From Armillaria gallica (Eukaryota > Basidiomycota > Agaricomycetes > Agaricales > Physalacriaceae), in NCBI GenBank assembly GCA_037576215.1, contig JBANDB010000009.1, positions 620,001-684,000 on the forward strand: a DNA stretch of 64,000 nt. Reading direction: 5' to 3'. The translations under genes and the position numbers were made by a program. The notes beneath the pieces were generated by a model. The model did no database searches and had not been told where the DNA came from. It saw only the letters and a program-made list of their open reading frames with translations. This document shows, piece after piece, positions 14,112 to 46,141 of the stretch. The stretch's first letter is position 1, and each line of letters begins with the position of its first letter.

Positions 14112-14314
14112 AGAACTCACGTTTCCATATTCTGACGGCGTATAAGCTGTAGTGGGCGATTGAGTCATTCCGATCATCAGAGAATTAATCGAAAGAGACA
14201 TACGCTTGGACTCCAACAATGGTTAACATCTAGTCAACAGTTAGAGCAGGATGCAAGATCATTCCGAAATCCACGTACGTTGACTAAGAGTTACAACTAC
14301 GGATGGGAGGAACT
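14112..14314 (-). pseudogene. Fragment of a DUF6534 gene
   Basis: About 200 bases closely match 2963-3157 of the DUF6534 gene, covering the exons around VVGVQALYAVRIWK and the introns between them. Introns are kept, so it is a DNA-level copy and not a retrocopy. Nothing of the rest of the gene is present nearby, so it cannot encode a working protein. Immediately to its right begins the duplicate of 6094-6860, so two separate pieces of the left locus are joined here. Confidence 0.85.
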
Positions 14315-14342
14315 TGCCTACGGTAAAGTACACAAATCAAAG

Positions 14343-15400
14343 TTGGCATCGTAGAACGATGGGTCCGTCATTGCTCCTTATTCTGCATCCAAGGTGTGAG
14401 TTGAGATAGAATGGTATGAATGGAAGGGAACTGACCCGAAACGAGGCGCCAATTCTTCGGTAAGAACGGACCATCCGCATCATGCTCAGAGTTAGTGCGG
14501 GCGATGTCCAAGGGTCTCCAGAAGATAACCGAAGGAGCTGGATACGGAAGAACGTACGTTGTCGAGGACTTGAGTTACTCTGGCCCTACAATATGTTCAT
14601 CGCATTGGAAGCAGAAAGTCTCTGAAGCATTGAAACATGTACATAAGCCTTGAGGAGATGTTCTCAACAACAACAAGGGCTCACCGTCCTGAACACTGCC
14701 TGGAGAATCTATCCTGTCCCTGGTCCAAGGCGGGGTTACGAATGGCGGTATGGAATCCCGGTGACAGCAACCAGCTTGTGCGAGGAATTACTAGCATAGA
14801 GAAGATCAGCAAACGGTGGGCGAGACTATTTCTAAGACTCACCCTAAGTGAAATCGTCAGCCATTCCAGCTCGCGAAGCTCAGGTCGCCTTTCTGGCACC
14901 ATTGCAACATGAAGCAGTCCGACGATTGAAGAAATACAAGGGAACGAGAGCTGCACAGTAGAGTAAGCGGGATCAACCAGCGAAGCGGGAGCGCAATGAA
15001 GGTGAAGGTGAAAGGAAGCCCCAATTGAAATTCAAGGTACCCCGTACACGTGATGCGCACGGGCCCGCGACGCGTTTCCGTGGGAAAACAATCCGATCTC
15101 CTTCAACACTGCACCATCCTGTCACGCATCCCCACGCACTGGCAGATCAACGTCAATTGTCGTGCGCCATGGCATTCCAAGGTCTTGTCATCCTTCCGTA
15201 CTAATAAAGTATAGCGGCTCAACGCTGTAAAATCGTGCCGTTCGGCCAGTGATGGCGATCCTGTGGTGCTGTTTTAGTTTTGGCTCGCGCGAAAAATGCT
15301 GTTGTGAATCCACGTTTTGACAGATGATACGCATGTCGCTGCTGCGTATGGTATGCATGAATCATGCAGGCCTGTGACTGCTAGTTCACTTGAAAGGTTG
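14343..15400. repeat. Segmental duplication, copy 2
   Basis: Diverged copy of 6094-6860, including the ACGCGTTTCCGTGGGAAAA block at 15070 and a later short match (GTGACTGCTAGTT) at 15373 and 6843. No complete gene is visible in it. Confidence 0.8.
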
Positions 15401-27599: not shown

Positions 27600-28440
27600 A
27601 ACCACCCCACCTTCCAATCCTTGTCCTGGCTCAGAGATCGATGACACCTTCACATCTCACCTCCAGCATGGGCAGCATTATCCATCTCCAGCCTTTAAAG
27701 CTCCATCAAGATGAAATCAACATAGAATCAAAACCAACTCACCTTTGCACTGGATCTCTCCTTTGCATGTGCAATCCATTTGCTAAGTGATGCTGGTGGT
27801 ACCTTCTCATGTTTGCAGACGCAGTCCAAAGTTGGATAAGTTGGTTTGGACTGTGATTCGATGCCAGCTTGCTTGTAGTTGACTGGTCATGGTTTATGGT
27901 GACAGCAGAGTTGAAGGGATAAACGGATCTCATCACCCGATTCTCTGTGGTCGATAACGGCATTGGTGAGGCCATTGTGAGGCTGCAGTGTGTAGTATGG
28001 GCCAAAAAAGGTGGGCATCGGGATGTGGAACGGGTGGGCAGCGATGACGGCGTCAGAGATAGATATCAACCACATAGTCATGTTCCCCCACTCAATAAAT
28101 GGGAGATGCATGACTGTGGAATGTGTAGGCGACCCTATTGGCATAGTAAGCCCACATGTTGGATGAGGATGGAGTGGCCAGAGGTGGGCATCATAGTGCT
28201 CACACAGCCGTATCATTGGGCATGTTCTGTGAACCCAAGAGTGGTTTATCGTTGTCCAAAAGGGCATGCTTGTCGTCACCATGGTTGGCCATCGGGGTCC
28301 TGACATTGCTCCCGCCTTCCCACTCAGACCCTTCAGCCCTGCTCCAGCCATCCAGCACCTCCAGTAACCCCTCCAGCCTCCATGAGCCTTGACCTATGCC
28401 CTACCATGGCCCAGGAGCAGAGAATAATGAACCCTGCCAC
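27600..28440. mobile_element. Unclassified repeat, left half of split copy A
   Basis: Aligns with 54420-55100; the clearest block is GTTCCCCCACTCAATAAATG at 28083 against GTTCCCCCACCCAAATAATG at 54788, followed by shared ATGCATGACT/ATACATGACT. Minus-strand frames are open in both copies (27887-28351 and 54402-54908) and partly alike, so the repeat may once have been coding. Homology breaks at about 28440 and resumes near 29800. Confidence 0.55.
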
Positions 28441-29790
28441 TAGCCGTTGATACGCCGTCTACGCGTTCACACCTAGATTTTGCGATTTTATAATAATACT
28501 ATTGCATATCTATCTTACATTAGTGATACTTAGAGGACTATAGCTGAGGCTTCGAGCTGATAGTTAGACTAGTATGCAACTAGTAGAGCCAGGACTTAGA
28601 TGCAATACCACTAGTGGGTTAAATCTACCAGCCGGCCATACTAGTGACTTGAATGCTAACAGGGCTAAGTGAATATGGCCACTAGTGGACAAGTAACGTG
28701 ACTAGCGCACCAAACAAGAAGCAGAGGACACAAATCTCGTGAAGTTCAGTCACTAGCAAGCTGATCTGGGCATAAACACCTAAGTCAGGTTAACTAGTTA
28801 CGCAGCAATCTCGAAACAGGACTTAGAAATGAATTAGCAACGGATTAACCTTGAGGCAAATCCAACTAAGCGCGATACAGATCCATTGCGATTGGTACTA
28901 GTATAGCCGGGCTGTGCCTTCGATCACGATCAACAGCTGTTACAGGCACGCTCGCCTGGCTAGTCATTTATCCTTGGCACTAGTGGAGCGTCGCTGGGCC
29001 CAGGACATGGAATACAATTGCTAGCGGAGCTCCTAGGCTCACTAGTCAGCAAGCAACCATTTCTAGACCGACTATTGTGTGATTATTCACCATTATTTGT
29101 GACTAGCCAAGAAATCCTTATCAATAATACCCCTCTAGTCAGTTATTTATATCTCGATTGTACCTTGTTTGTCAGTATATAAGTAGTAGAATAGGCACAC
29201 GCACAGCTCAGGCAAGCCATCCCTGCAATTGTGACCTACTAGTCAGTATCTAGTGCCCCAATTAAAGGCTTTTGTGCTTAACCTCGACGAAGCGGCTACT
29301 AGTCGCTAAGTTACCCATAGCATTGAGTGAATAGAAGTGTCTTAGAGCAATCTTTTGTGTCCTGCAAAGGCCAAGAGTGTTTTGAAGTTAGTTCAAGCGA
29401 GTTCTCGAAGTTTAAAGTATTATTCTTAGGCCAAGAGTGCCACTAGTCTGCCTAGCAAGTGACTAGTCAAGTGTTTATTCACTTGTAAGACATTATAGGG
29501 CCAAGAAAGCCACTAGTTCGAAGCAGTCCCAGTCAGAGCGAGCGCAGTAGCTCAAGTCAAGTCACTATTCATCCAATTGTGTCTTACCAACCCCACTAGT
29601 GTGAGTAGTACACTTGTATAGCTCACTAGTAACAAAATAAAATGTCTTTAAACAACTTTCCTTGATTATTGAAGTCTGCAGAGTGCTTCTATCATACTCG
29701 AAACGCCCGAATTCAATACATTGGTGATAAGTGTAGAGTTAGTGTTAGGTTTAGTGTTGTTGGTGTTCATTGCCAGCCACTAGTCCTTTT
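28441..29790. mobile_element. ACTAGT-rich insertion, possible solo LTR
   Basis: This block interrupts the repeat described at 27600-28440 and 29790-30235. It contains 17 ACTAGT hexamers between 28567 and 29785, where less than one is expected by chance. A TATATAAG box is near 29177 and AATAAA signals near 29635, the arrangement of promoter and polyadenylation signals expected of an LTR. The block GGCCAAGAGTG recurs near 29371 and 29430. Exact ends and a target duplication could not be fixed; no protein is encoded. Confidence 0.45.
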
Positions 29791-30235
29791 GCCACTCACT
29801 GTTACCGAGCACATCACCATTGTCGCTGTCGTCAATGCATTCATGGTTGTTGTTGTTGTCATCGTTCGTCTGCACCGGGAATTACAGCCTCCTACTTCCA
29901 GATGGTGGTTGATATAGAATCCCTGGACATATTCCAGGTTGCTGAGATGTAGGAATCTCGTGCTCGGCAGCGATTGCCCTCAATATTGAGGCAGGGTAGG
30001 CTGGGTGAGTGGGAATGGGCAGGGAGGGTTATTTTCTGCATTGGTGGGTGTCGTTGGGAGATGGTGTCATTGTCATCATCAAGTTCTGAGGGCATATTGT
30101 TGGTATCCTGCAGGTACAAGAAGTACTGCCTTGACTGAGGGCTTACACACAGGTGAAGGGGGTTGAATAGTCGCTATCCAGGCTCTTGGGACTGCCAGAC
30201 ACATAAAAGTATCTAAAATAATAGTAAGCATCAAG
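29790..30235. mobile_element. Unclassified repeat, right half of split copy A
   Basis: Aligns with 55130-55515, ending with GGCTCTTGGGACTGCCAGAC and AAAGTATCTAAAATA against GGCTCTTGGGGCCACCAGAC and AAAGGTATCTAAAATA. The match ends close to the last shared block in both copies, which probably marks the element's end. Confidence 0.55.
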
Positions 30236-30460: not shown

Positions 30461-32152
30461 TGATGGGCCTAAGACTTCCGTGGCAACGGCAACACCAACT
30501 CGGAATGAGATTGGTTAATTAATGTAGTGGCACGGCAATCAAGGCGATTGTGTGTGCGAGTGGTTCGGGGCACCTCCGTGCAGTAGAACAATTCCTCTAT
30601 ACGCAAGAATACACTGCGACTTTAAGTCTGCGAAGTAGTACTGCTTGGTAGTCGAGTACTAAATGCTATGGCTTCAAGCTGGTAGGGATCTCTCGAAATG
30701 AGAGGGAACGAAAACGGGTATGACGTGAATACCACGAATCCATATGAGAAAACGTGCTGTGAGACTAGAAAACGTTGCTCGACGTTAATCGGAGCGAGGT
30801 GAATGATGGAGAATAGACTAAACGGTCGACAATAGTCTATGGGTGAGTGAGGCGATGAGAAAACGGCGTGGGGACTGCGAATGGCGAAATAAACGTGGAA
30901 CGAGATGCTGAGGGTGGACTGGCAAGAGAAAACGTGGAACTACGAAAACTGGTGGCGATACTGGTCCTATACGATGCAAGGGTGCTGAGTCGATGTCGAA
31001 ACTTGTCTGGTACTGAAACGATCCTATCCTATGTCAAACTAACCTTCAAGTCCACTCGAGGGACTGATACTATACGAAAACTGGCTGAAACTGATCCTAA
31101 GTCTGCTCAGAGACTACCCAAGTGGGCGACGATAACAATGGCGAAAGTGAAACTGTAAAAACTCCAATGGTGCGAAAGTGAAATGATGACGGCCTATAAA
31201 AGATAACGGGGGTGAGGTATGGCACGGCGATCACGTATTGGCACAGTATGAGCGTGCACCAATAGTGTTAAGAGCAAAGAGCACGTAGCGAAGGACTCTT
31301 CACAGTTAAAAACCATGGAATAACTCTGGTGAGTTTCAAGAGTCGACATGCAATCAAGAATATGCTGGTGCAAACGATATATTGCCATAGAACGGTGAAT
31401 AAACATTGTTTACTGGCGATAGACTAGAGCGTGATGATAATTGACGTAGTCTGGGGTCAACTGGAGATGAACTGCCCTGTAACTACGTTTTCTAGCTAGT
31501 TTTTATACTAAAAGTACGAATTTATAAATAGAGTAAATATGCGAGACTTAGTAAGGCTGTAAGGTCTTAGCTTTGTAAAAAGTCGTAGGAAACATATGGT
31601 CCTTGGTCTTCTAAAGTAACAGCAACTCGTTGACGTTGCCGTGTATGGATGCAAACCGTATGGTTTTGCTGAGCGATGCACAGATCGTTAGGTGCTGTTT
31701 AGCTGCGGATTACTTGAGCAATAGTCGTTGTGCTGAGGAGTACGCGTGGGGCAACGTTTTCTTGAAGCCTTGGCGAAGTAACAGCCTTAGTAAACATGGT
31801 CTGTAGTTGCCGTAGCTGCTATTGCCGTAGCTGGGAGGGTACTCGCATCAATCACGTCATTTTCATTAAGTGATCAATGAGCACGTCAACTAGGTGCTTC
31901 TGAGTGATGTGTCAATTCCGTATTGGGATGATTGTCGATCGAAGGTGCCTTGCCGTGATGAAGTACGGCAATTATGATGCGTGGCCAGGTGGGATGGATA
32001 ACAAAGCGCGTAAGGAGTGGTTGCCGTAGGATGAAAGTTGTATCAATGTGTGTGCAATTATTGGTTTGCTGAAAGGCCGTTGAAGGGACAATAGCGTTAA
32101 TTAGCAGGCAAAATCCGCGAATTCTGAGCATACAGAGCCTGGAGGCTCATCA
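30461..32152 (-). repeat. 3' LTR of the gypsy element, complete
   Basis: 1692 bases, starting TGATGGGCC and ending GGCTCATCA on the plus strand, so the ends are TG...CA with 9-base near-perfect inverted termini. It is bounded internally by the polypurine tract at 32153. Its first 453 bases match 45689-46141. Confidence 0.9.
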
Positions 32153-32168
32153 TCCCCCCTAAACTTTT
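32153..32168 (-). promoter_or_regulatory. Polypurine tract next to the 3' LTR
   Basis: On the minus strand AAAAGTTTAGGGGGGA lies directly before the LTR start TGATGAGCC. In LTR retrotransposons such a tract primes plus-strand DNA synthesis. An identical 16-base copy occurs at 35937-35952. Confidence 0.85.
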
Positions 32169-32782
32169 ATTATGTTACTCGGGAACATAAGACCGATGTA
32201 TGAGTAACCGTTTTCCCATGAGAAGTTAGGGTTCTGGGCTCTGTTGCCAGGAGATAACGTGGTGGCTGTACGATGTGTCTGATATTGGTGATCGAATTGC
32301 TTTAGACGCATCGGTGATCTAAAGATAGATGCCGTTAATTGCGGTTCACAGGCACGGAAGTCTTCGTATGTCTTCTCGTTTCGCAACGGAATCTTCTGTG
32401 ACGCGTGAAAGAGTGGAGAACTTTCTGTTGCCGCATGACAAGTTGGACTTAGAGAAATTTTCCATTCATATCTCTTCCTTTCTTGCTTTCGCCTTCATCC
32501 TCTCGTTCCCCTCTGCTAACATAATCGTCCTCCTTTTCTTTTGCTTTCGTCGTTTTCCTTCTTCAAGACGCTCTTCCTCCTCTACCTCCAGAGGTAAGTA
32601 GTCTTCCCTTGGACACCGTCTGTTACACAGACGGATCCTTTCCACTTTGACGTGTACTGATGACTTCCTTTGGTTTCACTGAAGGTGTTTTTAGTGTCGT
32701 TTCCTTCTCTTCGCGCACGCTTCACCGGTGTTCAACGCTGGTGAAGTTGTCTTCTGAACGCTTGACTCGCCGTCTTCGTGAA

Positions 32783-35289
32783 ATGGCTGAGCCTACCGAT
32801 CCTGTTGAACTCGCTAAAGTCCAAGCTCAGGACCTATACAACGCCACTGCCGTCGCTATCAAAGACCTTTTGGATGACTTCCCCAACTCGACTTGGGATT
32901 CCACAAGGATGGACACCTGGATTATCGACGCCGTTAGCCATTGGTCGTCTTGTGAGGAAAATTGGTCGGCGGCCGGAGTTATCAGCAAGGAGTGGTACAA
33001 ACTGGAGTACAGTTTGCTAGTGCGGGTGCCTGACCTTTCGATGGATAAGGTGAAGTTTGCTCGTAGGGAATTCAATGAATTCGTTGAACGAGCAGTGCGT
33101 TTATTACTCGTCTCTCTTTTCCTTAACTTCTGATCGATTCCTTTTTAGCTCGATTATAATCTTGATGTTGTCCCTTTGCCTGTTCGTTGCGCACCGGCTA
33201 AGCGCTCCAAGACCACGGCTTCTCCTTCTCAGTCACGTCAAGATGTGGCGACAACTGGTTCTCGGGCGGTAACACCGGCTCCTTTACCTGTACCTTCAAA
33301 GACCATGACTCCTGTACCGCCGCCTCCGAAGCCCACAATGCCTGTTTCTCAGAAGGAGAAGACCCCAGCGCCTGTTACTCCTCAGCGAGTGGTACCACAA
33401 CGCGTTCCAAATCTTGCCAGCTCTGTACCTCGACTTAATCTTTTAGCTGCTACTCCTGCAGCTAATACGTCGTCATCCAACGTTCGAACTTCGGGCTCTT
33501 CGCGCGTCAACATTGCTAAACCTCCATTGCCTAATTTTACGGCTCCATCGACTACTCAGCAGCCTGGCCCATCTTCCACGACTCAAAGGAAGGTGACGCC
33601 TTTCGACTTCACCAAGGCTTTTCAGAAGGATTGGACCTCTCCTTTGCACAGCAAACCGGCTCAGCAACTCAAGACTGTGCCACCGGTCAATGCTATGCGT
33701 TCTGGGGCGTCCAGTCCAACTCCTTCTCGTGCGCTTGCCGTTGATGGTAGGTACTTTTGTCTTTTCTTGTTGATTGCCGTACTGACTTTTTATTTTTCAG
33801 CCGCGGCTCATCCTAACGTTATTCGAGGTCCAGATCCTAGTCTTCTATGTGCAGGTAGCGTTCTCGTTCCTTCAAATGACCACGAGCCCTTATTTCTGCC
33901 GGGTACAGATGATGAAGAGGACCAGGTTCAAGAGGACTTAGTGGAAACCGGGCGTGTCGACGAGGAAGTTGCTGGTACTGACGGCGAGGATGGAAATATT
34001 GCGATGGGTACTACGATGGATGTAGATGATGAGGAAGGGGCCGCTTCTGATGAGGACTCGAGTCCTATCCCTACGCTGGCTCGTCGTCTTCGAAAACCCC
34101 GAATTGAGTTCGTATTTGACGAAGTCACTGGTGATCTCCTCGAATCTCATCCAACTATCTTCCTTTCTAGGCCGACCGTCCCTTCGCAAAGTCCTGACCT
34201 TAGACGTTCTGCCTGGTCACGCACTTCCCCTGTCAATACTACTGCTGCCTATCTTCAAGCAGTCCACGATTCCAAGTCTGACGCCACGAAGAAGAAGAAG
34301 AAGAACTTGAAGGGTAGAGACCAGGCTTCAGGGACTAAGGCGTCTCATAAACGTGCAAGGACCGAAGATGATGCTGCACAAGTGAAGGACAAACCGTCCT
34401 CCAAAAGGCCCAAGTTAAAAGAGACCGTTGTTATTGATGAGGACGAACGTGAGTTCCTTTTTCTATCTGTGGTATCCTTTCTTAGTTCTTTTTCTTTAGC
34501 TGCCATAGCTACCAAGGTTGTTCGCGAACGTGGCCCTGGGCCTTCCAAACCGCCGCCAGTTACTCTAGGCGTTAGTGGTGGAGGTTTTGGAGAGAAGGTC
34601 CCTTCTTCGGCAAAGGAAGTAAAGGACGGTATCAAGAGCATTGGCGTGCTCATGGTCGATAAAGATTTCGGTAATTTCGTGGAGGTGGATAAGAGCTACT
34701 GGAGTAAGGAAGTAGCTCCTTTCGTGGGCGAGCGAGTAAGTGTATTCTCTTCGTGTTTAATCGCTCTCTCTCCTAACTTATTTCGACAGTATACCACCAC
34801 TTGTGACCACTGCCAGCGCCTTGGAACACAATGCTGCAAGCTCCTGATGCACACGGTTAAGTGTGTCCGTTGTCATTATTCCAAACTTCCATGCAAGGTT
34901 GATGGAGTTCCCGCTCTTAATCCCGTCGAGCATTATCGACCAAAGGGCTATGGTATGTTCTCTCCTCTCATATTTTTCTGTGCCGGGTCATGACTTTCCT
35001 TCTTTCTTTTATAGATGCTGTCAACACGTTCGAGGCCGCCGTTAATGCTATCGAGGCCAACAATGCCGCCATCTTCGCCATCACTCAACAGTACCTAGCG
35101 GGCCTTAGCGTTTCCGCGCATGTCGAAAATATCCGTGCTCAAGCCTCTCATCTCCACGGCTGCCTGGATCCCGTCGAGGATGAAGATGAAGAAGATGTTG
35201 AGGAAGAGGAGGACGATGGTGAGGCACCAGAAGATGTTGCTGAAGGCGTCACGGGTCCTTCCAAGCAGAAGAAGAGCAAGTCGCGTTGA
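32783..35289 (+). CDS. Antisense accessory gene A: Zn2Cys6-like cluster protein
   Basis: Six exons (32783-33094, 33149-33746, 33801-34448, 34500-34735, 34790-34952, 35015-35289) join in phase to 743 residues. Order: a folded-looking N-terminal part (MAEPTDPVELAKVQAQDLYN onward, to about 104), a long Pro/Ser/Thr-rich stretch, acidic blocks, a basic Lys-rich stretch (KKKKKNLKG), then a cysteine cluster near residues 600-625 with spacing C-x2-C-x6-C-x9-C-x2-C-x6-C (CDHCQRLGTQC ... CVRCHYSKLPC), an Ala-rich helix and an acidic then basic tail (PSKQKKSKSR). The spacing fits the fungal Zn(II)2Cys6 DNA-binding consensus, but here it is near the C-terminus instead of the usual N-terminus, so DNA binding is inferred. 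The gene runs against the retrotransposon and lies between integrase and 3' LTR. An upstream 5' exon (from about 32360) is possible. No stop or frameshift seen. Confidence 0.75.
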
Positions 35290-35512
35290 GCTGCAGAACT
35301 GGGGTCTTCGGTCGTCGGCTGGCGTCCTTGCTTGGGAGCACGGCTCCATTATTTTAGAACTTTTTACATATTTTGACTGTATCGCGCGCCCTATGGGCAA
35401 TATTTTTACATAGTGTTGAATGTCACCGCCCCAAAGAGGGTTCAAAATAAATAAATCGTATTTTCTTGCAATTTTTGTGTGATTTATTGGATTTTTGAGT
35501 GAATTTTCGGTG

Positions 35513-35616
35513 AATTTGGACTTAGAGAAATTTCAGCGGCTGGGGCTCACGTGCTAGGATTCACGTGATTGTCCACCTTGGGCTGTGTCTTGAAATAATT
35601 TCTCCAAGTCCGAATT
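35513..35616. promoter_or_regulatory. Inverted repeat enclosing two CACGTG boxes
   Basis: AATTTGGACTTAGAGAAATT (35513-35532) and AATTTCTCCAAGTCCGAATT (35597-35616) are inverted copies with 2 mismatches. Between them are CACGTG at 35548-35553 and 35562-35567, the E-box core bound by bHLH factors. A direct copy of the arm, TTGGACTTAGAGAAATTT, also lies at 32443-32460 upstream of gene A. Regulatory use is inferred. Confidence 0.55.
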
Positions 35617-35936
35617 GCCGTGAAATTGAAATGGTAAGGAATGTGGATGGCCGTGGCTCTGAGCCGTTGGCCTTTGGATTCGTCGTGTTTCGTGTTACTG
35701 GTCATGAGTTTTCGTTACTGAAGTATGATTTTGGTGATATCTCCATCGTGTATAGTCAAATTGATGGTGGAGCGTGGTATTTTTGTCGTTAGAAATGATA
35801 TTTTCGTAGTTTTTCGTAGAGTATTTCGTAGATTGAAAGGTCATTTCTTTCATGATTTCGTTACTTTTTGCACGAAAATGTAGTGTTGAAAAGAATGCGT
35901 GTTTTCGTCCTATGAACAACATGGGGACCATGTCTC

Positions 35937-35952
35937 TCCCCCCTAAACTTTT
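35937..35952 (-). promoter_or_regulatory. Second, internal copy of the polypurine tract
   Basis: Sixteen bases identical to 32153-32168 (TCCCCCCTAAACTTTT on the plus strand). No LTR end adjoins this copy. It could act as a central polypurine tract or mark an old LTR junction left by recombination. Confidence 0.6.
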
Positions 35953-36148
35953 TAAATCTTTGCCGGCCAAGGCTGAAAAGATTTAAACCGAGGTTCGAAG
36001 ACTTGTAATTTGAAAGTGAATGCCGCTGAGTTTTGAAAGTTGCAAACATGCGGTTGGATTCCGTGCTGCATTCCGTTGAGCGTATGATCCAAGCCCGATA
36101 GGAATTTTCGCGTAAATGCGATGAGGTGAGTTGTTCTTTGAGTTTTTG

Positions 36149-36154
36149 TATAAA
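36149..36154 (+). promoter_or_regulatory. TATA box of antisense gene B
   Basis: TATAAA, about 55 bases before the start ATG at 36210, in the context TTGTATAAAGGGAA. Confidence 0.5.
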
Positions 36155-36209
36155 GGGAATGTTTTCTTGTCGTTGTGTCCTCAGAATCATCGCATTTCAC
36201 TGAATCGCC

Positions 36210-38162
36210 ATGTCTACTTCTGCTGCTCAAACTATTCCATCTCTCATCTCCCTTGTCAAGCGTGCTGATGCCGTCTTGCAAGCCCCTCTCGAGCCTAACG
36301 CGCAATTATTGCGTCGCACCACCTACTTTGACGAGGCGGCACACGTCAAGGTAAATTGCCATGCTCTTGTGCGGGTTTTCCTGCTTTAATTGCCGTTGAA
36401 TAGTGCCAGGTCGAAGCGTACTATCCATCCGCTCTCAAGGAAGAATTCTTTAAGACGTTCGAGGCTGTCATCGATGGCTGCGTCTCTAAGTTCAACTTCC
36501 GCGAGACTTGGGACACCATGCTCAAGATCGAGTCGGACCGTCTCAAGTTTTCTGTCAGTGGACGGTACTCCATCTCCGGCAACCAGATCTTGGATGCTTT
36601 GGAGGTCCTTCCTCCCTTGCGTTACCGTATCGACAACGATATCCAGATGTCGTCTGCTCTGTTCACTCCCAATATCGCTCCTTCCAAGGAAGTTCAGACC
36701 GTGCCTTTGTCTTCGGATGCCGCGTCTGCTTCTGCCTCTCAGGGTGCCGACTTGGTATTGGAGGAGGAAACTCCTGCTAGGGAAACTCATGCCGTGTCTC
36801 CTTCTACGGTCTCTTCTGCAGATTGGGTGGTACGTGCTTCGAATCAATTAAAGCCGTAGCATCACGTTAATTTGACTTGGTATGATCTAGATGCCATCTC
36901 CGGTTGTCGCTCCTTCCGGTGCCTTCATTGAGCAATTTGCTGAGAAAGAAGGTACCCTCAAGGACACCGTTCAGATTGGCGAGAAGATCACCGATCTGTA
37001 TCGCCGCTCTTTCAACAAGGCTGACCTCCAGTACGGCAACACGTTCTGCGCCTATTGCTCTGACACTCCTAGTCATCCCGCTCATCGATGTCCTGCTCGA
37101 TCCGCCAAGGTACGTTTTCTTTTTAAATCCACGTTTTCTTTTGTATTGACGTGAATCTAAGGCTGTTTGTCCTTGCGGGCCTTGCATTCTTGAGGGCACC
37201 GAGTGCACCTTTGCCAGGTTGTCTTCGATCTGCCATGCTTGCCATAAATCCATGACTCGTCGCTGCATCGGAGGTCTTCCTGACCGACAAATCCTCTTGA
37301 TGCCGTTCAAGGATCCTCTTGATGCTGTTCAAGGATCCTCATCCGGAGAACGATAAAAATATCCTCGACATTATTGATGAACTCATCGATGCTGACCCTT
37401 ATGGAGCAAGTAAGTTTTTGTCTTCCACGTTTTCTGGTCTGCGGTTACTAATTCCATGCATTTATAGCTCCTTCGCCCGACATTGGTGATGATCCTCATA
37501 CGGAAGCCATCGTCCACAACGCGGCAGAGTTTGTTGGGGCGAACTATCAACAGTTTACTCCTCAGGGCGAGTCTATAGCCTCGTTGGTGAAGACGAAGGA
37601 CTCCTTCTACCATCAGTTGGAGTCTAACACCCGCGATCTCTATTTGCACCTGAAGATTCGCCACGTCCTCATCCAGCATTACCGTCTTGTTGCGGTTAAA
37701 CTCGATGAGACGCGTGCTCAAGAGGAAGCGGAGGCTAGTACTGCAGCCAAGATGTGGACCGACAATCATGCTACGTCTTCTCGCAAAACCTATGCTCCTT
37801 GGTGGCGGAATAAGCACCAGTGTTCGGGTCGTGGCCACGGTAAGAAGAACCAGTCGAAGAACAAGGGCAAAAAGGAGGATCGAAAGGGTAAAGGTAAACA
37901 CGAGGCCGCCCAGTACATTAAGGAATGTGCTGGGTGGAGTTGCGACCATAATAACTGTGATTCTAACATGGAGACTCCAGACCCTGTCCCAGCTCTTTGT
38001 ACTTGCTGTGGTTGGGGCCATTGTGGTGAAGCTAACTGTCCTTCTAAAGGCAGCTGGACTCCGCCTCCCCAGGCATCCGTCGAGTACCAGGACGGTGTCC
38101 CTGGTAACTATGGAGGAAACTGGCAGAGCAAGGTGGGCTCCAGTCGTCGTGGTCGTTACTAG
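36210..38162 (+). CDS. Antisense accessory gene B: Zn2Cys6-like cluster protein, frameshifted
   Basis: Five exons: 36210-36350, 36404-36829, 36891-37109, 37162-37409, 37468-38162. The protein begins MSTSAAQTIPSLISLVKRAD. Exon 3 ends with a zinc-knuckle-like C-x2-C-x5-H-x4-C (CAYCSDTPSHPAHRC). Exon 4 carries CGPCILEGTEC ... CHACHKSMTRRC, spacing C-x2-C-x6-C-x8-C-x2-C-x7-C, again matching the Zn(II)2Cys6 consensus. The last exon has a helical part, a Gly/Lys-rich basic stretch (GRGHGKKNQSKNKGKKEDRK) and a further Cys-rich block (CTCCGWGHCGEANC). A 22-base tandem duplication in exon 4 (37294-37337) shifts the frame and leads to an early stop just after the cluster; the downstream sequence is still open in the other frame, so the damage is recent or tolerated. 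Shares layout with gene A, suggesting common origin. Confidence 0.7.
37294..37337 (+). repeat. 22-base tandem duplication in gene B
   Basis: Two copies of a 22-base unit (CTCTTGATGCCGTTCAAGGA plus TC), differing by one C/T. Since 22 is not a multiple of 3, it changes the reading frame of exon 4. Confidence 0.9.
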
Positions 38163-38361
38163 AGTTGCCGTGGTTGCCTAAGTGGTCGTATTCAATTCGT
38201 ACGGACAATTTCGCAGGGGTATATTTTGAACGAGTGTTGGGGGACCGGTATGGATATACCGGTCAGAATAATTAGCTATGAATGAATGTGTAGGGGCCTC
38301 CAAAATGGAGCCCAATTATTTATATAAAATTTTTGGTTTTTGCCAATGTCTCGAGTGAAAA

Positions 38362-41300
38362 TCAAGCAAGTTCTGCTTCATTATGCGCTCCTTCTAGATC
38401 TGGGAGGTCGTCGAGCGTACCATCATCTGATGACACGAAGAGATCATTGATCCACGTGGGTGGCATGTCAATGATCACATTGATATCCGGTACGTCAATC
38501 TTCTTTCTGGCGAAGTACAGCAATAGCCTAAACGTGGCAACTGGTCTTGCGAAGGTCGAACCGTCTAATTCACAAAGGAGATATGCGCCGCCTTTATTCC
38601 TCCCCAAGATCACTAAGGGGCCCAAATATCTGGCGCGCATTTTACGATTTAGAGCCTTCTCTATCTGTGTGTTGCGCATCAAAACTAAATCTCCCTTCTG
38701 GAAGTTGAAGTCTCTGATAGAGTATTCATGGTCCTTCTCGAATTTAACTGCGGCATTTCTTCTAGCTTCGTAGACTTTAGACCTCAAGCGCTCGAGATCT
38801 TGAGAACGTTTTTGAAGACTAATGGCTCGGTGTGCAATTAATGACGTGGTACTGATGATATTGTCTGGTGGCAGCATCAACCATGTAGATTCGACTATGT
38901 CCATTGGAAGAAGGGGCTCTGTCCCGGTTGCGGCAAAATACAGTGAACAACCCATGCGTCTCCTGATCGTTATTCGGTCTGCCCAAAATACGGAATAGGC
39001 ATTTTGACTCCACTTCTTTTGATCACCATCAGATGCCTTAAACAGTCCTTGATGGACGTTGAAGTGCGGTCGTTCGGCAATTCCATTGGCTCTGGAGTTA
39101 TAACCGGAGATACGAATGTGATTGATATGGTACTTCTTGCTTAAATAATTGATTGCGGCAACAAAGGCGGATCCGTTGTCGGTAACAATCTCGACTAAGG
39201 ATCCCCAACGGCATAAGATATCCTCGAAAATCCATTCTCCTAATGTTCATGCTGTTTCTTTGTGCAAGCAACGAAATTCTGGATAATGACTGAGCGAACA
39301 TCTGCCTTGGACGATGTAACGGTATTGTCCTGAAACTGGCATGATCATGGTGTCCATGTACATCTTGGAAAACAAAGGAGCGGGAAGCGCGACGGTAGGC
39401 GGGATATAGATTTGTCGGGTTTGACGGATTTGGCATAGATGACACGTCCTTACGAACCAGGAAATATCATACTTCATATCCGGCCACCAATAACGTTCCT
39501 TGATTAGCGCGTGTGTCGCATAGAAGCCCTTGTGAGCAACGTCATCATGACAAGACGTCATCACTTGAATGCGACGTTCGGGGAACAAGACGAGCTGATG
39601 TCTCCCATCTATGTTTTTGCACCATAGCTTTCCTTGTCTCTCGAAGAAATGAACGGCGTATTTCATGAATTTCGCATATGCAATATCGTCAAATCCTGCA
39701 GGCCTCTTGAGGTATAGATGCCACGGCAACAGGTGCGTTAGCCATTCATCTAAACATTGTTGCTTTGCGGTACGAGGAACTTCTGAGTAAGGAATGATTT
39801 CCGTGGGATCTATGGCAACTTCTTGTTGTAGAACTTGAATTAACATGATTGGCGAATTAACCGTAGGTGAAGTTGAATTAATAAAATGCATAAGCCCGTA
39901 ATGAGTGTGTAAGAAGTCTTCCATGCCGTCTTCGGGCAGAGGAGGGTCTCCTAGTTGGGGTGGGCGTCGCGGTAATCCATCTGGACCATGCTTAGAGCCT
40001 GGTACATGGACTAGAACAAAATGAAAAGATAGAATGCCGATAATCCATCAGTTAACTGCTGCTGAGGGTGCGATATCAGGGTTCTTGAGCATTCCCTTGA
40101 TAGCACTCGCGTCTACTTCAACAATAAACGTAGGAAGACCGATAAGATAAATTTTGCAATCTCCTAGAGCGTGGTAGAGTCCAAATATCTCTTTCTTGGC
40201 TTGAGAATATCCGCACTCGCGTTCGTTAAGAGTGATTGAACCGAATCTAGCGAAATATCGAATCTTTGGGTTGACGGGGTCGCACTGTGCTAGATAATAT
40301 CCAACTGCAGCAGGTCCTGTATCAACGGCAAGTATAACAGCTCCGGTTGACGTGTAACTGAGTGGCCTTAATGCCGGGCTGACTCTGACTGCGTCTTTAA
40401 GATCTTCTTGTGCGGCAATCTCTGCTGATTCGAATTTGAAAGGAACATCTTTTCTGAATAACTTGGTAATGGGTAGAGCTCGGGTTGCGAAATTATCGAT
40501 GAATATTCGTAGGACTCCGACGGTACCAATGAAGGCACATGCGTCAGAGACGTCAATACAAGGCCCCCATCGAAGTATCGAAGAGACAATACTTTCGAGA
40601 GGTAGTCGGCCAGCATACGTGCATCTATGACCTAGCACGGTAATTTCGGCGCAGCAAAGGTAGGCTTTCTTGCCTGAAAACGTGCCTCCACAATATTTCA
40701 TGCGTTGGACAATTCTGTTTAGGTTCTGGAAGTGTTCCCAAACAAAACGTCGAATGCCGTTATTGAGAGGAATGGTTTCATAGCCTCCTATGATTTCGTA
40801 TCGAGTTTCTGGTCCTCGAACTGGAACGTCATCAATGTAAGGAATGGTGAACTCTGGGATTTCGGGTTGTAGAATGAAGGTAACGTCGTCATGGAATATT
40901 GGGACGGAATTTGTCCAACCCATGGGTAAGGTAACGAGTCGTAGTGCTCCATAAGGAGTCTGGAAGGTGGTAAGGTCGCGAGACGACTCTGCCAATAGAC
41001 GTTCATCGTATCCAACGAATAAGTCTAGTGTAGCGCCGCATGCACGACCTGCGAAATGTTCTGCGAGAGGGTCTGTTGCCGGTGGTAATCCAGAATGAGC
41101 AATCGTAACTTCATTCAACGGTTCTAGACTGTGAACTATGCAAAGACTTTTGCCATCTTTCTTTAAAACCGTAAACCATCTCGAGCGGTAAGAAGAATTG
41201 GAAGGTTCATAAATGCCTGCGTCAATCTTTGTCTTGATCATACGGCAAACTTCTGTGTAAATGCCTGGAGGTATAGGCATATTTCGTAGAACCCAAGGGG

Positions 41301-42063
41301 TGTGTTCGACGACTGGGATATCGATTGGAGGGAAGAACTCTCTACGAAAACTGCCTTGTTCTGAATCCTCCCATGCGAATGCTTTCTCCTGAACCATCAT
41401 GAAGTGATGCATGAGCTTCATTTCTTCTGGCCAAAGGAAACCATCATTATGGATGGAGTCGATGTACTCCTTGCGCTCTTGGGTATAACGTTCGGTGGGA
41501 ATGAAAGGGGGTGGGGTTGGAGATAACATAGGTATTTCGGCTAATGGATCTCCTCGAATATTGCGAACGATACGGAATTTATCAGGCAAGGTTGCAAGTA
41601 CGGGCTTCGTTTTCAAAGCGACCGGCTTGTACTTCTTGCCTGCTAACACCGAAACTTTCTTAGAGAACCATGGCTTGTAGGATTGATCTCCAATAATATT
41701 AGAACCGTATAGACGATACATGTAATCTCGGGGCTGGGAAACGGAACTGAAATCTGAGAAATCTTGAGGAATCTGAGTAGGAATAGAATATAACAGTAAC
41801 AATTGTTCGCGATCTGTTGGTAAAGAGAATTCGGCATATGGGGTGGAACTGTACACGGTTTCGGTCGACCATAGTGATTGTGTAAATGTAGTGGGTTGGA
41901 TAGGGAATTTATTAGGGTCGCAAGCCAATAAATATTGGGTGGAAGCTTTTTCTGAGTCAAATTCGGAAGTGGACGCCGCGTAGGCAATAATTTTAGGTTC
42001 TTGATTCATGTCTAATTCAATGACGAGGGCGATCTCCTCTATATCATCGTTGGGTTCTTCTAG
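38362..42063 (-). CDS. Gypsy pol: reverse transcriptase, RNase H, integrase
   Basis: Read from directly after the gag stop (first ATG 42009, MNQEPKIIAY). Reverse transcriptase: primer-grip and palm motifs, with the catalytic YIDD in TIPYIDDVPV and upstream TPYGALRLVTLPMGWTNS. RNase H: ILAVDTGPAAVGYYLAQ, LNERECGYSQAKKEIFGLYH and VEVDASAIKGML supply the D-E-D residues. Integrase: zinc-binding H-x-C part (HKGFYATHALIKERYWWPDM ... CHLC) and the catalytic D (YMDTMIMP), D (EIVTDNGSAF) and E (GIAERPHF). A C-terminal part with GDLVLMRNT and MRARYLGPLVIL follows. Two internal in-frame TGA codons, at 40048-40050 (after RNase H, before WIIGIL) and 39247-39249 (before TLGEWIFEDIL), fall where relatives have arginine, consistent with CGA to TGA mutation. 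Everything else stays in one frame. Confidence 0.92.
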
Positions 42064-42066
42064 TCA
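42060..42066 (-). promoter_or_regulatory. TGA-CTA-G context between gag-protease and pol
   Basis: The gag stop reads TGA CTA G on the minus strand, and pol continues in the same frame. TGA-CTA is the best-known efficient stop-readthrough context in eukaryotes and RNA viruses. Readthrough here is an inference; the alternative is that TGA arose from CGA, as at the two pol stops. Confidence 0.5.
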
Positions 42067-45000
42067 ATTTTCCCAAGAAAATGGGACGTGGTTAAGGATA
42101 CGGGGACGACCACGAGGAATCGTCGGGATGGTGGCGGTCTTGCCGGTGTTCAGATCATGGATGGTAATGGTCTGGTTTTCGTCCGAATAATTGCGAACTA
42201 TGCTCTGAGTTAACGTGTTGAAGGGTCTGCTGAGCAAGATATCGTAGGCAGATTGCCGAATGACGTGCACTTGCAAGTATAGTGTGATATCTCCAAACAA
42301 AAATGCGACATTTCGTGCTAGACCCAAGGAATAATTTGTAGTTCCATTGGCTGACTGCATTTCCAATATAACCATAGGATCATAGATCAACCCTAAGCGC
42401 AAGCACACAGTTTCTGACATGGAGATCACTTGTGATCTGGGATCAATGATGCATTCGACTTTGAGCTGATGATCCACCACTGGGACGATGGATCTTAATG
42501 AAATAGAATCTGCTGCGCATTTCAAGGGTCCGATCTTCTCCCCTTTCTTGATGCGAGCTTCGTACGGGTCTGGGACGACTGACGATCCTGCTGGCAGTTC
42601 CTTCTGCGCGTTACTGGTCTGCTCGAAAGTCTGCACGAAATTATCTGGCATGCTGTATAAAAGAGTGGAAGTTTTGCTGTTTTCGTGGTCTTCTGGCACC
42701 TTTACCATGATTTCTACGGTTTTGGGTCCGGTAAACAGTAAAGCTACCTCCTTCTGGAACTGTTCCACTGTATTTGGCACTTTGCGCTTCGTGTTATCCT
42801 CCTTAATCATTTCCCTGATTGCTGGTGATAAAGAATATAACTCTTGATGCGACAATGTGATCGTGGAGTCAAGCGCACGCTCATAGACTTCTCGTGCAAC
42901 ATGCGAACCTTCTATCGGCGCCTGCGTCCTATAAGCAGGTTCATTATCTTTGGGACGCTTGCGGACATCTGGCTTTGCACCTGCATTACGAACTACTGGC
43001 GGTGCGTAATTGGCTGGCTTTGCTGCGGCAAATGGATGAATATCTTCGGGGATGAGCTGAGCTACATGCTCCTTGACTGGCGCATGCTCGGGTACTGCCG
43101 TGACAGTCTTGGATGGATCACGTCGCAGAGTAGCAGGTGGCGCGTAAGATGGAAACTTGGAACGAATATCCTGATCATTGCCGTGGACTACTGTCTTTGA
43201 TTTCTCGAATTGTCGTGGAGAATAAGACTCGATAATAGCTGCAGCAATTTCGTCGTCTTGCTTGGTCTGAGTAGGTATGGCAATATCGTCTTCGCCGTCT
43301 GAATATTCAACTAAGTTGGGCATGCCATCATAATCTGGTGTAAGATCTTGATCGAAGTGATCGCAAATCTTGGGTATGGCAACCTCCTGCTCATCATCAA
43401 GCACGGCTTCTTCAGCAGCCTTCCGACTAGTACAAGTTTGTCGACCCACTGCCTTAGTAGGTTCTTGTGGAACAGCGGCCTCCGCTTTTGCTGCGGGCGC
43501 TGCTTTCTTGGTTGGTCCGCGTTTAAGGCGGGGAACCTCGACTACTACTTGGTGAATCATAGTATCTGTAGTGTCTGCGGTATTCGGACTGGACGAGTCT
43601 TCTTCGGCAACATGCATGAACTGTTTGATGCCCTGGATCTCTTTTCCAATAGCTTCGGATTTGGCAATGAGCGCCTCGAGGCGTTGACGCGCATCTATCC
43701 TGGAAACGGGCATGCTAAGTGACTGAGCATCTGCGTTAACTGGCGAAGAACGTTGCCGACTGAGATGCGGAACTGGCTCGACAATGGCATTCATCAACTG
43801 ATTAACGATGCCGATCTGGCCGGGATTCTGTCGGTGCCATTCTTCGATGCGATCTTTAAGCCAAGTGCCTTGAAGACCTCTAGGGACCCAAGCGCCAGTA
43901 GATAGGACGATCTTCCCATCTATATTGCACCTGCATTTCCCTTCTTTAATCATTTCCTCGACTTTGAGACATTCTCGAATAAAATGGCCAATTTCACCGC
44001 AGAAACTGCAATTTTGGCCAGTTGCCGTATTAGCATAACTGCTCTGCTGCGGTGGACCGGACGAAAATGATCGTTGCTGAGCTTTCTGGAATCGATCATT
44101 CGAGTTTAGCTGCAATAGCGTCTCACCAAGTTTAATGAGCTGATTAATATGCTCCATCTTTACTTGGGGTTCCACAGGTTCCTCCTTGACGCGGACGATT
44201 GGCTGAGGTTGTGAAACGGGACCGGGATACGGCATCTCGGAGGGTCTAGCTGGACCAGCGTCACGAAAACTCTGAGTAGGCATACTGCTAAGAGTGCTTT
44301 CTCCTTTATTCGTGCCTTGTAGAACGAACTGAGCGGCTGCGTAAATGTCGCTGAGGTCGTAAGGGTCTGCTGGATGATGGTCTGGTAATTTGATCTGGAG
44401 TCGACGGGCAATGGTGTCCCAAACGTGGTTAGGAAAGCCTTTACTGAACATATTGCCGGTCTCGTGGTTCGACAAATGATTATTCGTGACCAAGTGCTGT
44501 ACTTTGGGGTAGAATTCTCGATAAAACGCTCCTAGGTCTGCGAGATTATCAACTTCTCGCGCGTATTTTCCAATGATGCGCTCGAGGTCGTGTCTCTCGT
44601 ATTTACGAGTGGTACTAGCGTCTGGATACTGAGCAACTACGGCATCCTTGAAATTTTTGTAGGTTTTGCCGGCGTCGCTATACTCGGGCAAGCTCTCCCA
44701 AAACTCGGAGATGACGAGACCAGGATAGTAGATAAACCACTTCTTTTTATCGGCGTCTGCATTTATGCTATGACGGGTGAAAAGGCCTTCGATATCACTG
44801 ATATAACGCATCAATTCGCGTCCAGGACTAATTTCGTCAATGATATTCGGGGCGCTCTTCTCCTTTCGGAACAGCATAGATGCTGCTGCCATGGCTGCGG
44901 GTTGTTGTACTGGCTGCTGAACTGGAGGTTGTACTGGGGGCTGTACAGGTGGTTGTGCGCCGGGTTGCGCTACGGGGGCTGGTTGTTGATTCAGATTGAC

Positions 45001-45591
45001 TGGTGGTAAAATGGGAAATATGGGAAAATAAGAGGTGGAAGCCTCTGCCGGTGGATCAAAAGTAAGACTTTGTTCGAAGGACTCGTCCTTGATATCAAAG
45101 TTTATGGTGGTAGCAGAATCTGGTACTAATTTGTCGCTAGATTCGACGGATTCTTCTTGTCGGTAGTTGGTGAACAAGGTGGATTCTACGTGGTAGCCTC
45201 CGAAAGCTTGTCCGGAATAAGGTGTGCCGGGGGCTGTTCCGTAGTTTGAACCAAAGAGTTCTGCGGTAACTTCGGTTTCTTCATCGTCTTCTGGTCCAGA
45301 AAACGATAAATTCTCTCTTTCAGAGATGTCTAGTTCTGCGGGAAATGGGGATGGGGGAGATTCCACGAAAGATCCAGGAATGGGACTACAAGGAGAGTCT
45401 GGTAACGGGGTTTCTGTAGCGAGCGTCGAAGATGACGCTTCAGATGATGCTAAATGGGCTGTAGATTCTTGTAACTGAAGACGCGCAGAGGTATTTCGAA
45501 GGCCTCTGCCCGGAACTGGGACGTAAGGTGTTTTACGTTCGAATTTTCGTGAAATGGTGAAGAATTCGGGTTCGCAGCAAGTATAAGCTTG
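42064..45591 (-). CDS. Gypsy gag-protease
   Basis: The frame opens after a TAG at 45592-45594 and ends at TGA 42064-42066. The capsid-like central part (for example WFIYYPGLVISEFWESLPEY) is followed by a CCHC zinc knuckle CSFCGEIGHFIREC near 44010, a long charged linker, and a retropepsin-like domain (VECIIDPRSQVISMSETVCL ... YDILLSRPFN). The protease has D-P-R-S where most have D-S/T-G, so its activity is uncertain. There is no in-frame ATG between the frame opening and the MAAASMLFRK position about 230 codons in, so initiation may be non-AUG, from a spliced leader exon, or internal. The N-terminal part contains a QPPVQPPVQQPVQQ repeat. The pol frame follows directly in the same frame after the TGA. 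Confidence 0.88.
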   Translation of the reverse strand, partial: QAYTCCEPEFFTISRKFERKTPYVPVPGRGLRNTSARLQLQESTAHLASSEASSSTLATETPLPDSPCSPIPGSFVESPPSPFPAELDISERENLSFSGPEDDEETEVTAELFGSNYGTAPGTPYSGQAFGGYHVESTLFTNYRQEESVESSDKLVPDSATTINFDIKDESFEQSLTFDPPAEASTSYFPIFPILPPVNLNQQPAPVAQPGAQPPVQPPVQPPVQQPVQQPAAMAAASMLFRKEKSAPNIIDEISPGRELMRYISDIEGLFTRHSINADADKKKWFIYYPGLVISEFWESLPEYSDAGKTYKNFKDAVVAQYPDASTTRKYERHDLERIIGKYAREVDNLADLGAFYREFYPKVQHLVTNNHLSNHETGNMFSKGFPNHVWDTIARRLQIKLPDHHPADPYDLSDIYAAAQFVLQGTNKGESTLSSMPTQSFRDAGPARPSEMPYPGPVSQPQPIVRVKEEPVEPQVKMEHINQLIKLGETLLQLNSNDRFQKAQQRSFSSGPPQQSSYANTATGQNCSFCGEIGHFIRECLKVEEMIKEGKCRCNIDGKIVLSTGAWVPRGLQGTWLKDRIEEWHRQNPGQIGIVNQLMNAIVEPVPHLSRQRSSPVNADAQSLSMPVSRIDARQRLEALIAKSEAIGKEIQGIKQFMHVAEEDSSSPNTADTTDTMIHQVVVEVPRLKRGPTKKAAPAAKAEAAVPQEPTKAVGRQTCTSRKAAEEAVLDDEQEVAIPKICDHFDQDLTPDYDGMPNLVEYSDGEDDIAIPTQTKQDDEIAAAIIESYSPRQFEKSKTVVHGNDQDIRSKFPSYAPPATLRRDPSKTVTAVPEHAPVKEHVAQLIPEDIHPFAAAKPANYAPPVVRNAGAKPDVRKRPKDNEPAYRTQAPIEGSHVAREVYERALDSTITLSHQELYSLSPAIREMIKEDNTKRKVPNTVEQFQKEVALLFTGPKTVEIMVKVPEDHENSKTSTLLYSMPDNFVQTFEQTSNAQKELPAGSSVVPDPYEARIKKGEKIGPLKCAADSISLRSIVPVVDHQLKVECIIDPRSQVISMSETVCLRLGLIYDPMVILEMQSANGTTNYSLGLARNVAFLFGDITLYLQVHVIRQSAYDILLSRPFNTLTQSIVRNYSDENQTITIHDLNTGKTATIPTIPRGRPRILNHVPFSWEN

Positions 45592-45666
45592 CTACGAAGG
45601 GCGAATTAAAAGGTGATAGGTGTATATAAACGCGATCAAAGAATTGATCTGGGGTGTGAACTGATC

Positions 45667-45684
45667 CCCTCGCGGTGGGCTCCA
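45667..45684 (-). other. Primer binding site
   Basis: TGGAGCCCACCGCGAGGG on the minus strand begins four bases after the 5' LTR end. The leading TGG would pair with the CCA of a tRNA 3' end; the tRNA could not be identified by eye. Confidence 0.6.
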
Positions 45685-45688
45685 GAAA

Positions 45689-46141
45689 TGATGGGCCTAA
45701 GACTTCCGTGGCAACGGCAACACCAACTCGGAATGAGATTGGTTAATTAACGTAGTGGCACGGCAATCAAGGCGATTGTGTGTGCGAGTGGTTCGGGGCA
45801 CCTCCGTGCAGTAGAACAATTCCTCTATACACAAGAATACACTGCGACTTTAAGTCTGCGAAGTAGTACTGCTTGGTAGTCGAGTACTAAATGCTATGGC
45901 TTCAAGCTGGTAGGGATCTCTCGAAATGAGAGGGAACGAAAACGGGTATGACGTGAATACCACGAATCCATATGAGAAAACGTGCTGTGAGACTAGAAAA
46001 CGTTGCTCGACGTTAATCGGAGCGAGGTGAATGATGGAGAATAGACTAAACGGTCGACAATAGTCTATGGGTGAGTGAGGCGATGAGAAAACGGCGTGGG
46101 GACTGCGAATGGCGAAATAAACGTGGAACGAGATGCTGAGG
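45689..46141 (-). repeat. 5' LTR of the gypsy element, truncated
   Basis: 453 bases match 30461-30913 with two differences (CG/TG at 45751 and CG/CA near 45829). The remaining 1.24 kb of the LTR is missing; sequence beyond 46141 is unrelated. Confidence 0.92.

Follow-up and report, generated by a model that had tools for sequence, protein, structure and literature searches.

A stretch of 64,000 nucleotides from Armillaria gallica (contig JBANDB010000009.1, positions 620,001 to 684,000; hereafter the window), part of contig 9 of an 86-Mb host genome in 28 contigs, holds a gypsy-type long terminal repeat (LTR) retrotransposon on the minus strand (30461-46141, with direct 453-bp repeats at both ends) that carries two intron-bearing genes, A and B, on the plus strand, between integrase and the 3' LTR, at the coordinates that an initial annotation had given them. 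Gene A runs from an ATG at 32783 to a stop at 35289, and its six exons (32783-33094, 33149-33746, 33801-34448, 34500-34735, 34790-34952 and 35015-35289), separated by five GT-AG introns of 51-62 bp, encode a stop-free protein of 743 aa. Gene B, from an ATG at 36210 to a stop at 38162, has five exons (36210-36350, 36404-36829, 36891-37109, 37162-37409 and 37468-38162) and four GT-AG introns of 52-61 bp. In the window copy, a 22-bp tandem duplication within exon 4 (approximately 37294-37337, plus strand) puts gene B out of frame: of ten other copies, nine have this exon exactly 22 bp shorter and the tenth, C1_1929, has it 30 bp shorter, and six of the ten have no internal stop. All four gene B introns are GT-AG in each of the ten copies onto which the model could be projected, four further stretches having ended too early, and length differences between copies are multiples of three in the exons other than exon 4 and not in the introns. 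The window's gene A model was read by hand, a splice-site script having given a wrong 844-aa model there; models for 12 other copies come from a simple script of this kind, which yielded six plausible full-length models, over-ran in C3_2329 and gave five that were broken or cut. The C12_399 model lacks part of exon 1, its N-terminal figures coming from a shorter stretch.

Each predicted protein has a six-cysteine cluster, C-x2-C-x6-C-x9-C-x2-C-x6-C in A (34802-34894, plus strand) and C-x2-C-x6-C-x8-C-x2-C-x7-C in B (37174-37266, plus strand), precisely as first described, and the A protein also has lysine/arginine-rich stretches and an acidic tail. Fungal Zn(II)2Cys6 clusters have the spacing C-x2-C-x6-C-x5..12-C-x2-C-x6..8-C, into which A and B both fall, here and in a sister family of elements described below. 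The patterns recur in other copies and in public proteins: that of A is kept at 13 of 15 A loci of the host genome (one locus, C16_267, has two stop codons inside the cluster) and in 31 of 42 public A proteins, that of B in nine of ten host-genome copies besides the window's and in 9 of 13 public B proteins. The description of the clusters as Zn2Cys6-like stands as far as the spacing and its conservation go, but it finds little echo in Pfam, where Zn_clus (PF00172) matched 7 of the 42 A proteins weakly (best E 0.0043) and neither the 13 B proteins nor the sister-family A protein; no other transcription-factor family was among the Pfam matches of the 42 A and 13 B proteins. Searched against solved structures, a gene A profile gave three weak matches (best E 0.019), which we did not use, and a gene B profile gave none.

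Both genes are a trait of the element family and move with the element as a unit. We compared 34 B loci, 29 A loci and 31 loci of the family integrase in the host genome (at least 73% identity; 150 of 681 candidates scored), in lists merged from separate searches. The family integrase lies antisense within 8 kb at 28 of the 34 B loci, with a gap of 1073-1134 bp at 24 of those 28, well beyond what chance would give; gene A adjoins 28 of the 34, and both A and integrase are present at 24. Gene B, in turn, lies beside 28 of 29 A loci and antisense at 28 of the 31 selected integrase loci. The sole A locus in the compared list outside this arrangement is an A fragment without B at C13:461352; outside the lists themselves are an 88-bp A match (C4:7299383), a 73% B match (C14:1617171) and N-terminal matches at C11:1539208 and, as a fragment, at C7:3318925. 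The initial annotation had proposed that the genes travel with the element and had called for a check on other gypsy copies, and this check bears it out. A one-off chance insertion of host genes is refuted because the positions of A and B recur, facing integrase, beside each other and at all four sister-family loci (below), and chance capture of host genes by one copy, as the source of A and B, has a negligible probability given many copies at a fixed position in two families, with C13:461352 the only exception among A loci. Public homologues number 76 for gene A and at least 17 for gene B (8000 candidates scored); the named protein matches are all from Armillaria except one from Guyanagaster, and the nearest homologues of A are in A. 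gallica and A. nabsnona. At five places in A. ostoyae and A. borealis, A and B have neighbouring locus tags (for example ARMOST_20409/20410 and EV421DRAFT_1747224/1747225).

A sister family of at least 8 copies, its integrase 62-65% identical (150 of 681 candidates scored), has A and B antisense and ordered as in the main family at each of the 4 loci fetched out of 8, with cysteine spacing equal to that of the main family. The first intron of gene A lies at a homologous codon boundary in both families; one of the four sister copies, L039, has AT and not GT at the donor of this intron (L039:633). It had been argued that antisense introns survive because they escape splicing of the genomic RNA, and the kept intron sites, those of B in ten of ten copies and the first of A in both families, fit this. 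Two loci of more distant families, L036 and L037 (integrase about 42-43% identical), matched neither the A nor the B profile. At L037:1270-4292, in the gypsy locus with an integrase 43% identical, antisense open stretches have a cysteine-rich cluster and acidic and basic parts unmatched by these profiles; antisense genes may be more widely spread in the host genome.

The element also has its polypurine tract twice. One tract (32154-32168, minus strand) lies beside the 3' LTR, upstream of gene A, and an exact 15-base copy (35938-35952, minus strand) lies between the two genes, upstream of gene B; each is found in 13 of 15 copies, and no further copy with two or fewer changes occurs elsewhere in the window's element. 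The sister family has its own, different tract sequence, which likewise occupies both positions (read at the one locus for which both were fetched), with the inner tract present at 4 of 4 loci. Because the two tracts of each family match each other, they suggest a function that has been kept, perhaps in priming the plus strand, perhaps as a promoter element for the antisense genes. A short inverted repeat follows each tract on the plus strand, GTTACTC...GAGTAAC at 32174-32208 and AAATCTTT...AAAGATTT at 35954-35984, as read in the window copy; the repeats are present with changes in other copies. The cluster profiles of A and B (34802-34894 against 37174-37266) align with an E of 0.0003 but a probability of 39.7%, and this weak alignment, together with the doubled tract, hints that A and B are homologous, through a one-time duplication of a tract-plus-gene unit.

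Gene A is far more variable than the element around it, a feature that the initial annotation had missed. Across 13 copies (C3_7517 and C5_2501 left aside), the mean pairwise difference per 100 bp outlines a hypervariable island (32500-35450, plus strand) that approximates the predicted transcription unit of gene A: it is 0.18-0.45 over 32500-35399, 0.12 in the edge window at 35400 and 0.03-0.10 outside, rising at about 32500, standing at 0.21-0.45 through gene A and falling by 35500, with 0.03-0.08 in the LTR end, in the spacer beyond 35500 and in gene B. The island takes in introns, synonymous sites, about 0.3 kb before the gene A ATG and 0.15 kb after its stop. Between copies, gene A is 51-99% identical and the downstream flank 92-99%. 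Mean synonymous divergence (dS) is 0.76-1.62 in parts of A, with saturated pairs dropped, against 0.09-0.16 in gag, reverse transcriptase (RT), integrase (INT) and B, the values for A being about tenfold those of gag-pol. The ratio of nonsynonymous divergence (dN) to dS is 0.19-0.28 in B, 0.19-0.24 in gag, RT and INT and 0.07-0.36 in parts of A, the last being rough values because codons were projected from the frame of the window copy with the other copies' indels passed over, and pairs that were saturated or short were set aside. The set comprised 11 copies, with 9 for exons 1 and 4 of A and 7 models for A as a whole. All ratios lie below 0.4, which shows purifying selection on A, B, gag, RT and INT.

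The variation in A is, moreover, patchy. Pairwise identity profiles of the copies are mosaic: identity between C7_1422 and C12_399 is 45-53% across some 0.75 kb on the 5' side of A and reaches 93% in the 3' half, and C1_5554 and C7_3117 are 98.6% identical in A and 94.8-96.4% in their flanks, which is within the range of other pairs. Gene A identity and flank identity have no significant link (Mantel r 0.23, p 0.12, 12 copies). The alleles of A sit in element copies with flanks otherwise about 94% identical, and A is exchanged between copies.

The N-terminal domain encoded by exon 1 (32783-33094, plus strand), about 105 aa with its tryptophans kept, falls into discrete allele classes. At a level of 55% identity, 63 rows make up nine classes, of which three include more than one species group, and amino-acid identity between classes goes down to 26-39%. 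In the host genome, 17 loci are of the window's class (70-100%), 3 of a second (74-100%) and 2 of a third (95-100%); 4 further loci, 46-49% identical to the third, were taken as a fourth, and there are two outliers. In C11_1500, this domain shares 73-75% identity with proteins of A. ostoyae, A. borealis and A. solidipes and at most 38% with seven sibling copies. An approximately unbiased (AU) test on 54 rows, with mellea, luteobubalina and novae-zelandiae rows left out, rejects an N-terminal tree that keeps gallica, nabsnona and host-genome rows together (p-AU 5e-49, a value not to be taken literally). In the gene B tree (frameshifted copy C1_1929 left out), one supported group unites the proteins of borealis, ostoyae and solidipes and is separate from the nine host-genome copies, which lie near each other (mean identity 93%, and 61% to other species); two A. 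gallica B proteins on long branches look like poor gene models. Judged by its N-terminal domain, with classes common to several species groups and older than the background, gene A exists as several old alleles, and some classes predate the split of Armillaria species groups.

The remainder of the element has the structure of Ty3/gypsy elements, with TG...CA LTRs, target duplications and, by position, a primer binding site and polypurine tract. The 3' LTR (30461-32153, minus strand) is 1.69 kb long with TG...CA ends, as defined by two complete copies, whose LTR pairs are 1689 bp at 97.4% identity and 1694 bp at 98.5% and which are flanked by 4-bp target duplications, GCGC and TCGT (2 of 2 checked); by the coordinates of these two copies, full-length elements are about 17 kb. 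The LTR search of the genome scored 40 of 623 candidates. The window's 5' LTR (45689-46141, minus strand) is a truncated remnant of 453 bp, 99.6% identical to 30461-30913, without the outer 1.2 kb into which the two complete copies continue. An LTR length of 453 bp was rejected, since the LTR measures 1.69 kb in other copies and the window's 5' LTR is shortened. A putative primer binding site that starts with TGG (45667-45684, minus strand), placed by position, lies 4 bases inside the 5' LTR.

On the minus strand follow gag with a zinc knuckle and then the protease region, in an open reading frame (ORF) of 1100 aa (42064-45366; Pfam zf-CCHC, weak), RT with RNase H (40048-42009; Pfam RVT_1, weak, and RT_RNaseH; dN/dS 0.24 in 11 copies), the H2C2 part of integrase (39247-39924; Pfam Integrase_H2C2, E 4e-17) and ORFs of its C-terminal part (38362-38955). 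The first 22 genome-search rows for the H2C2 part are 84-100% identical over at least 202 of 225 residues, and the C-terminal part with the part upstream of it is 83% identical over 339 aa to the sister-family integrase. The domain order is that of gypsy elements (zinc-knuckle gag, aspartyl protease, RT, RNase H, H2C2 integrase), also in copy L020; RNase H and H2C2 score above the Pfam curated cut-offs and RT, protease and rve below them, the protease match being in ORF L020:2097-4148, which found no match among solved structures. The window copy is damaged: pol is broken between 38955 and 39247, and gene B has lost its frame. Neither the Rfam nor the tRNA scan of the window gave a match. Just outside the 3' LTR, 17 ACTAGT palindromes occur in 1.4 kb at 28400-29800 (0.3 expected with equal base use), which may be a repeat or an LTR of another element. 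Helitron genes (DUF6570, Helitron_like_N and PIF1 helicase) occupy 48497-52741 on the plus strand, from 2.4 kb past the truncated 5' LTR, and pieces of another dispersed repeat at 2959-3166, 6081-6731 and 14111-15088 occur in two places at 76-87% identity.

Why would a retrotransposon keep one gene so variable? With moderate confidence, we favour the reading that this Armillaria gypsy element of about 17 kb carries A and B as antisense accessories that bind nucleic acid, and that A types each copy under negative frequency-dependent selection. A and B would be expressed as spliced transcripts whose promoters adjoin the two polypurine tracts, and their products would act as nuclear, nucleic-acid-binding accessory proteins of the element; their introns, being antisense, would stay in the genomic RNA and hence survive retrotransposition. 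The N-terminal half of A would give each copy a type, and rare types would be kept, most probably because a new one escapes repression aimed at common types; such repression may come from host silencing or from resident copies that limit copy number. If co-packaged RNAs serve in turn as template in reverse transcription, this switching could move A alleles or parts of them between copies, and the internal polypurine tract, by starting a separate plus-strand segment across A, may favour such exchange. We favour typing because old alleles, purifying selection within alleles, mosaic exchange and narrow one-gene limits fit this kind of selection with recombination. A bolder form of the idea, which we offer only tentatively, is that a spliced antisense zinc-cluster typing gene, with alleles that persist across species and pass between copies as a cassette, decides which copies repress or tolerate each other, with the doubled tract making it a separately primed and easily exchanged segment.

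Several observations weigh against typing. The splicing and promoters of A and B are predicted, and no LTR difference was linked to the A classes. The N-terminal tree has long branches, that of P0075 above all, and for gene A as a whole (P0080 and C3_2329 left out) the AU test does not reject species-group monophyly (p 0.203), probably because parts of A have different histories. The sister family counts on both sides. In favour of typing, it repeats the A-B order, the cysteine spacing and the doubled tract, and two groups of its copies, which differ by 0-4% over most of A, reach 26% in a stretch of the 5' part. Against typing, these two groups are also 7-11% apart in windows of gene B, and copies L035 and L038 nowhere differ by more than 2%. 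Exon 1 of A varies mainly synonymously there (dN 0.02-0.12 and dS 0.06-0.99, in rough frames), so protein-level typing is not indicated in that family. Because parts of sister gene B have diverged too and L035 and L038 are alike throughout, hypervariability of A alone holds for the main family only.

The synonymous divergence of sister exon 1 would suit a typing that acts on RNA: the antisense A transcript would pair with genomic RNA, small RNAs would form and only nucleotide-matching copies would be silenced, so that nucleotide divergence itself is selected, as in plasmid incompatibility groups with antisense-RNA control. The island's extension over introns, synonymous sites and sequence before the ATG and after the stop is also in keeping with this, but gene B is antisense as well and yet not hypervariable in the main family, the low amino-acid identity between N-terminal classes (26-39%) exceeds what silent change would need, and old protein alleles would also be expected to gather silent divergence by linkage; we regard RNA-level typing as rather unlikely. 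The initial annotation had suggested that the two genes may control transcription of the element or its choice of integration sites. A role of A as an integration-targeting or chromatin-binding factor, whose classes would partition insertion sites with rare-site types favoured, strikes us as somewhat more doubtful still: the zinc-cluster spacing and basic stretches suggest DNA binding, and a variable N-terminal domain with a conserved C-terminal cluster would suit it, but integrase itself is not variable.

Selection for diversity could be dispensed with if a recombination hot spot between the two polypurine tracts imported A segments from diverged lineages. The island (32500-35450) does sit between the tracts at 32154 and 35938, and parts of sister-family B have diverged too. 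Such import, however, needs a lasting pool of diverged functional alleles, with dN/dS low and classes common to several species groups, and the diverse stretch of the sister family ends inside A and not at a tract; we hold the hot spot to be about as doubtful as a targeting role. Very improbable is a high mutation rate or relaxed constraint in A, to which divergence at all kinds of site might otherwise be put down, since C1_5554 and C7_3117 are more alike in A than in their flanks, classes are common to several species groups and dN/dS in A is 0.07-0.36. Low dN/dS and the same pair of copies led us to reject neutral decay or a mutation hot spot for A.

Known systems share parts of this arrangement. 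The initial annotation had taken intron-bearing antisense zinc-cluster genes to be undescribed in fungal gypsy elements. This claim is not fully borne out, since one such element, Boty of Botrytis cinerea, is known to have an antisense gene, brtn (Zhao et al. 2011, cited in PMC7264820, PMC8365987 and PMC4227169); for zinc-cluster antisense genes it agrees with our literature search, which, with most subscription papers outside its scope, found neither these nor any LTR-retrotransposon accessory gene that is hypervariable and trans-species. A fungal LTR survey (PMC3248453), a giant-element review (PMC6431247) and the A. borealis genome paper (PMC7487993) do not use the word 'antisense' in their main text. 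Boty, in Botrytis cinerea and Sclerotinia, is like the Armillaria element a fungal gypsy element with an extra antisense gene; as far as the citing papers, and not the brtn sequence, allow comparison, it differs in having one extra gene named and an ascomycete host. Plant Ty3/gypsy elements (Retand, Grande and RIRE2; aORF-3R) have antisense ORFs between pol and the 3' LTR, and resemble ours in the position and orientation of the extra genes, their presence in most copies and the DNA-binding or nuclear properties suggested for them, whereas their proteins have a TRP28 domain or belong to other families (PMC7264820, PMC11963269). The main text of these two papers contains neither 'intron' nor 'zinc', the sections covered mention no allele classes, and both papers treat the role of antisense accessory genes in LTR elements as an open question. 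TRP28 (PF04195) was not among the families that the 42 A and 13 B proteins matched at E 0.1, which sets them apart from Retand.

Fungal Zn(II)2Cys6 transcription factors (PF00172) share with A and B the cysteine spacing and the basic and acidic stretches, and differ in their profile, which matches A weakly (7 of 42) and B not at all (0 of 13). Lentiviruses and yeast Ty1 have a second, central polypurine tract, and like them the Armillaria element has an exact internal copy of its 3' tract; its inner tract, in contrast, lies between two antisense genes and not in pol, and priming from it is putative. Fungal mating-type and incompatibility genes combine allelic recognition with old trans-species alleles, and gene A is similar in joining a conserved chassis to a variable domain whose classes are old and discrete and in part common to species groups, whereas its alleles reside in a multicopy mobile element and not at a host locus, and recognition is putative. 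Old alleles shared in a multicopy selfish element would mean that selection keeps the diversity of a retroelement gene over species splits. The family shows, besides, that genes with introns can last through repeated rounds of reverse transcription. The family also amounts to a natural mutagenesis, in which many copies differ strongly in one accessory gene and slightly elsewhere, and the function of A can therefore be tested by comparing copies. If the typing system proves true, it would be a retrotransposon counterpart of mating-type or phage-immunity groups.

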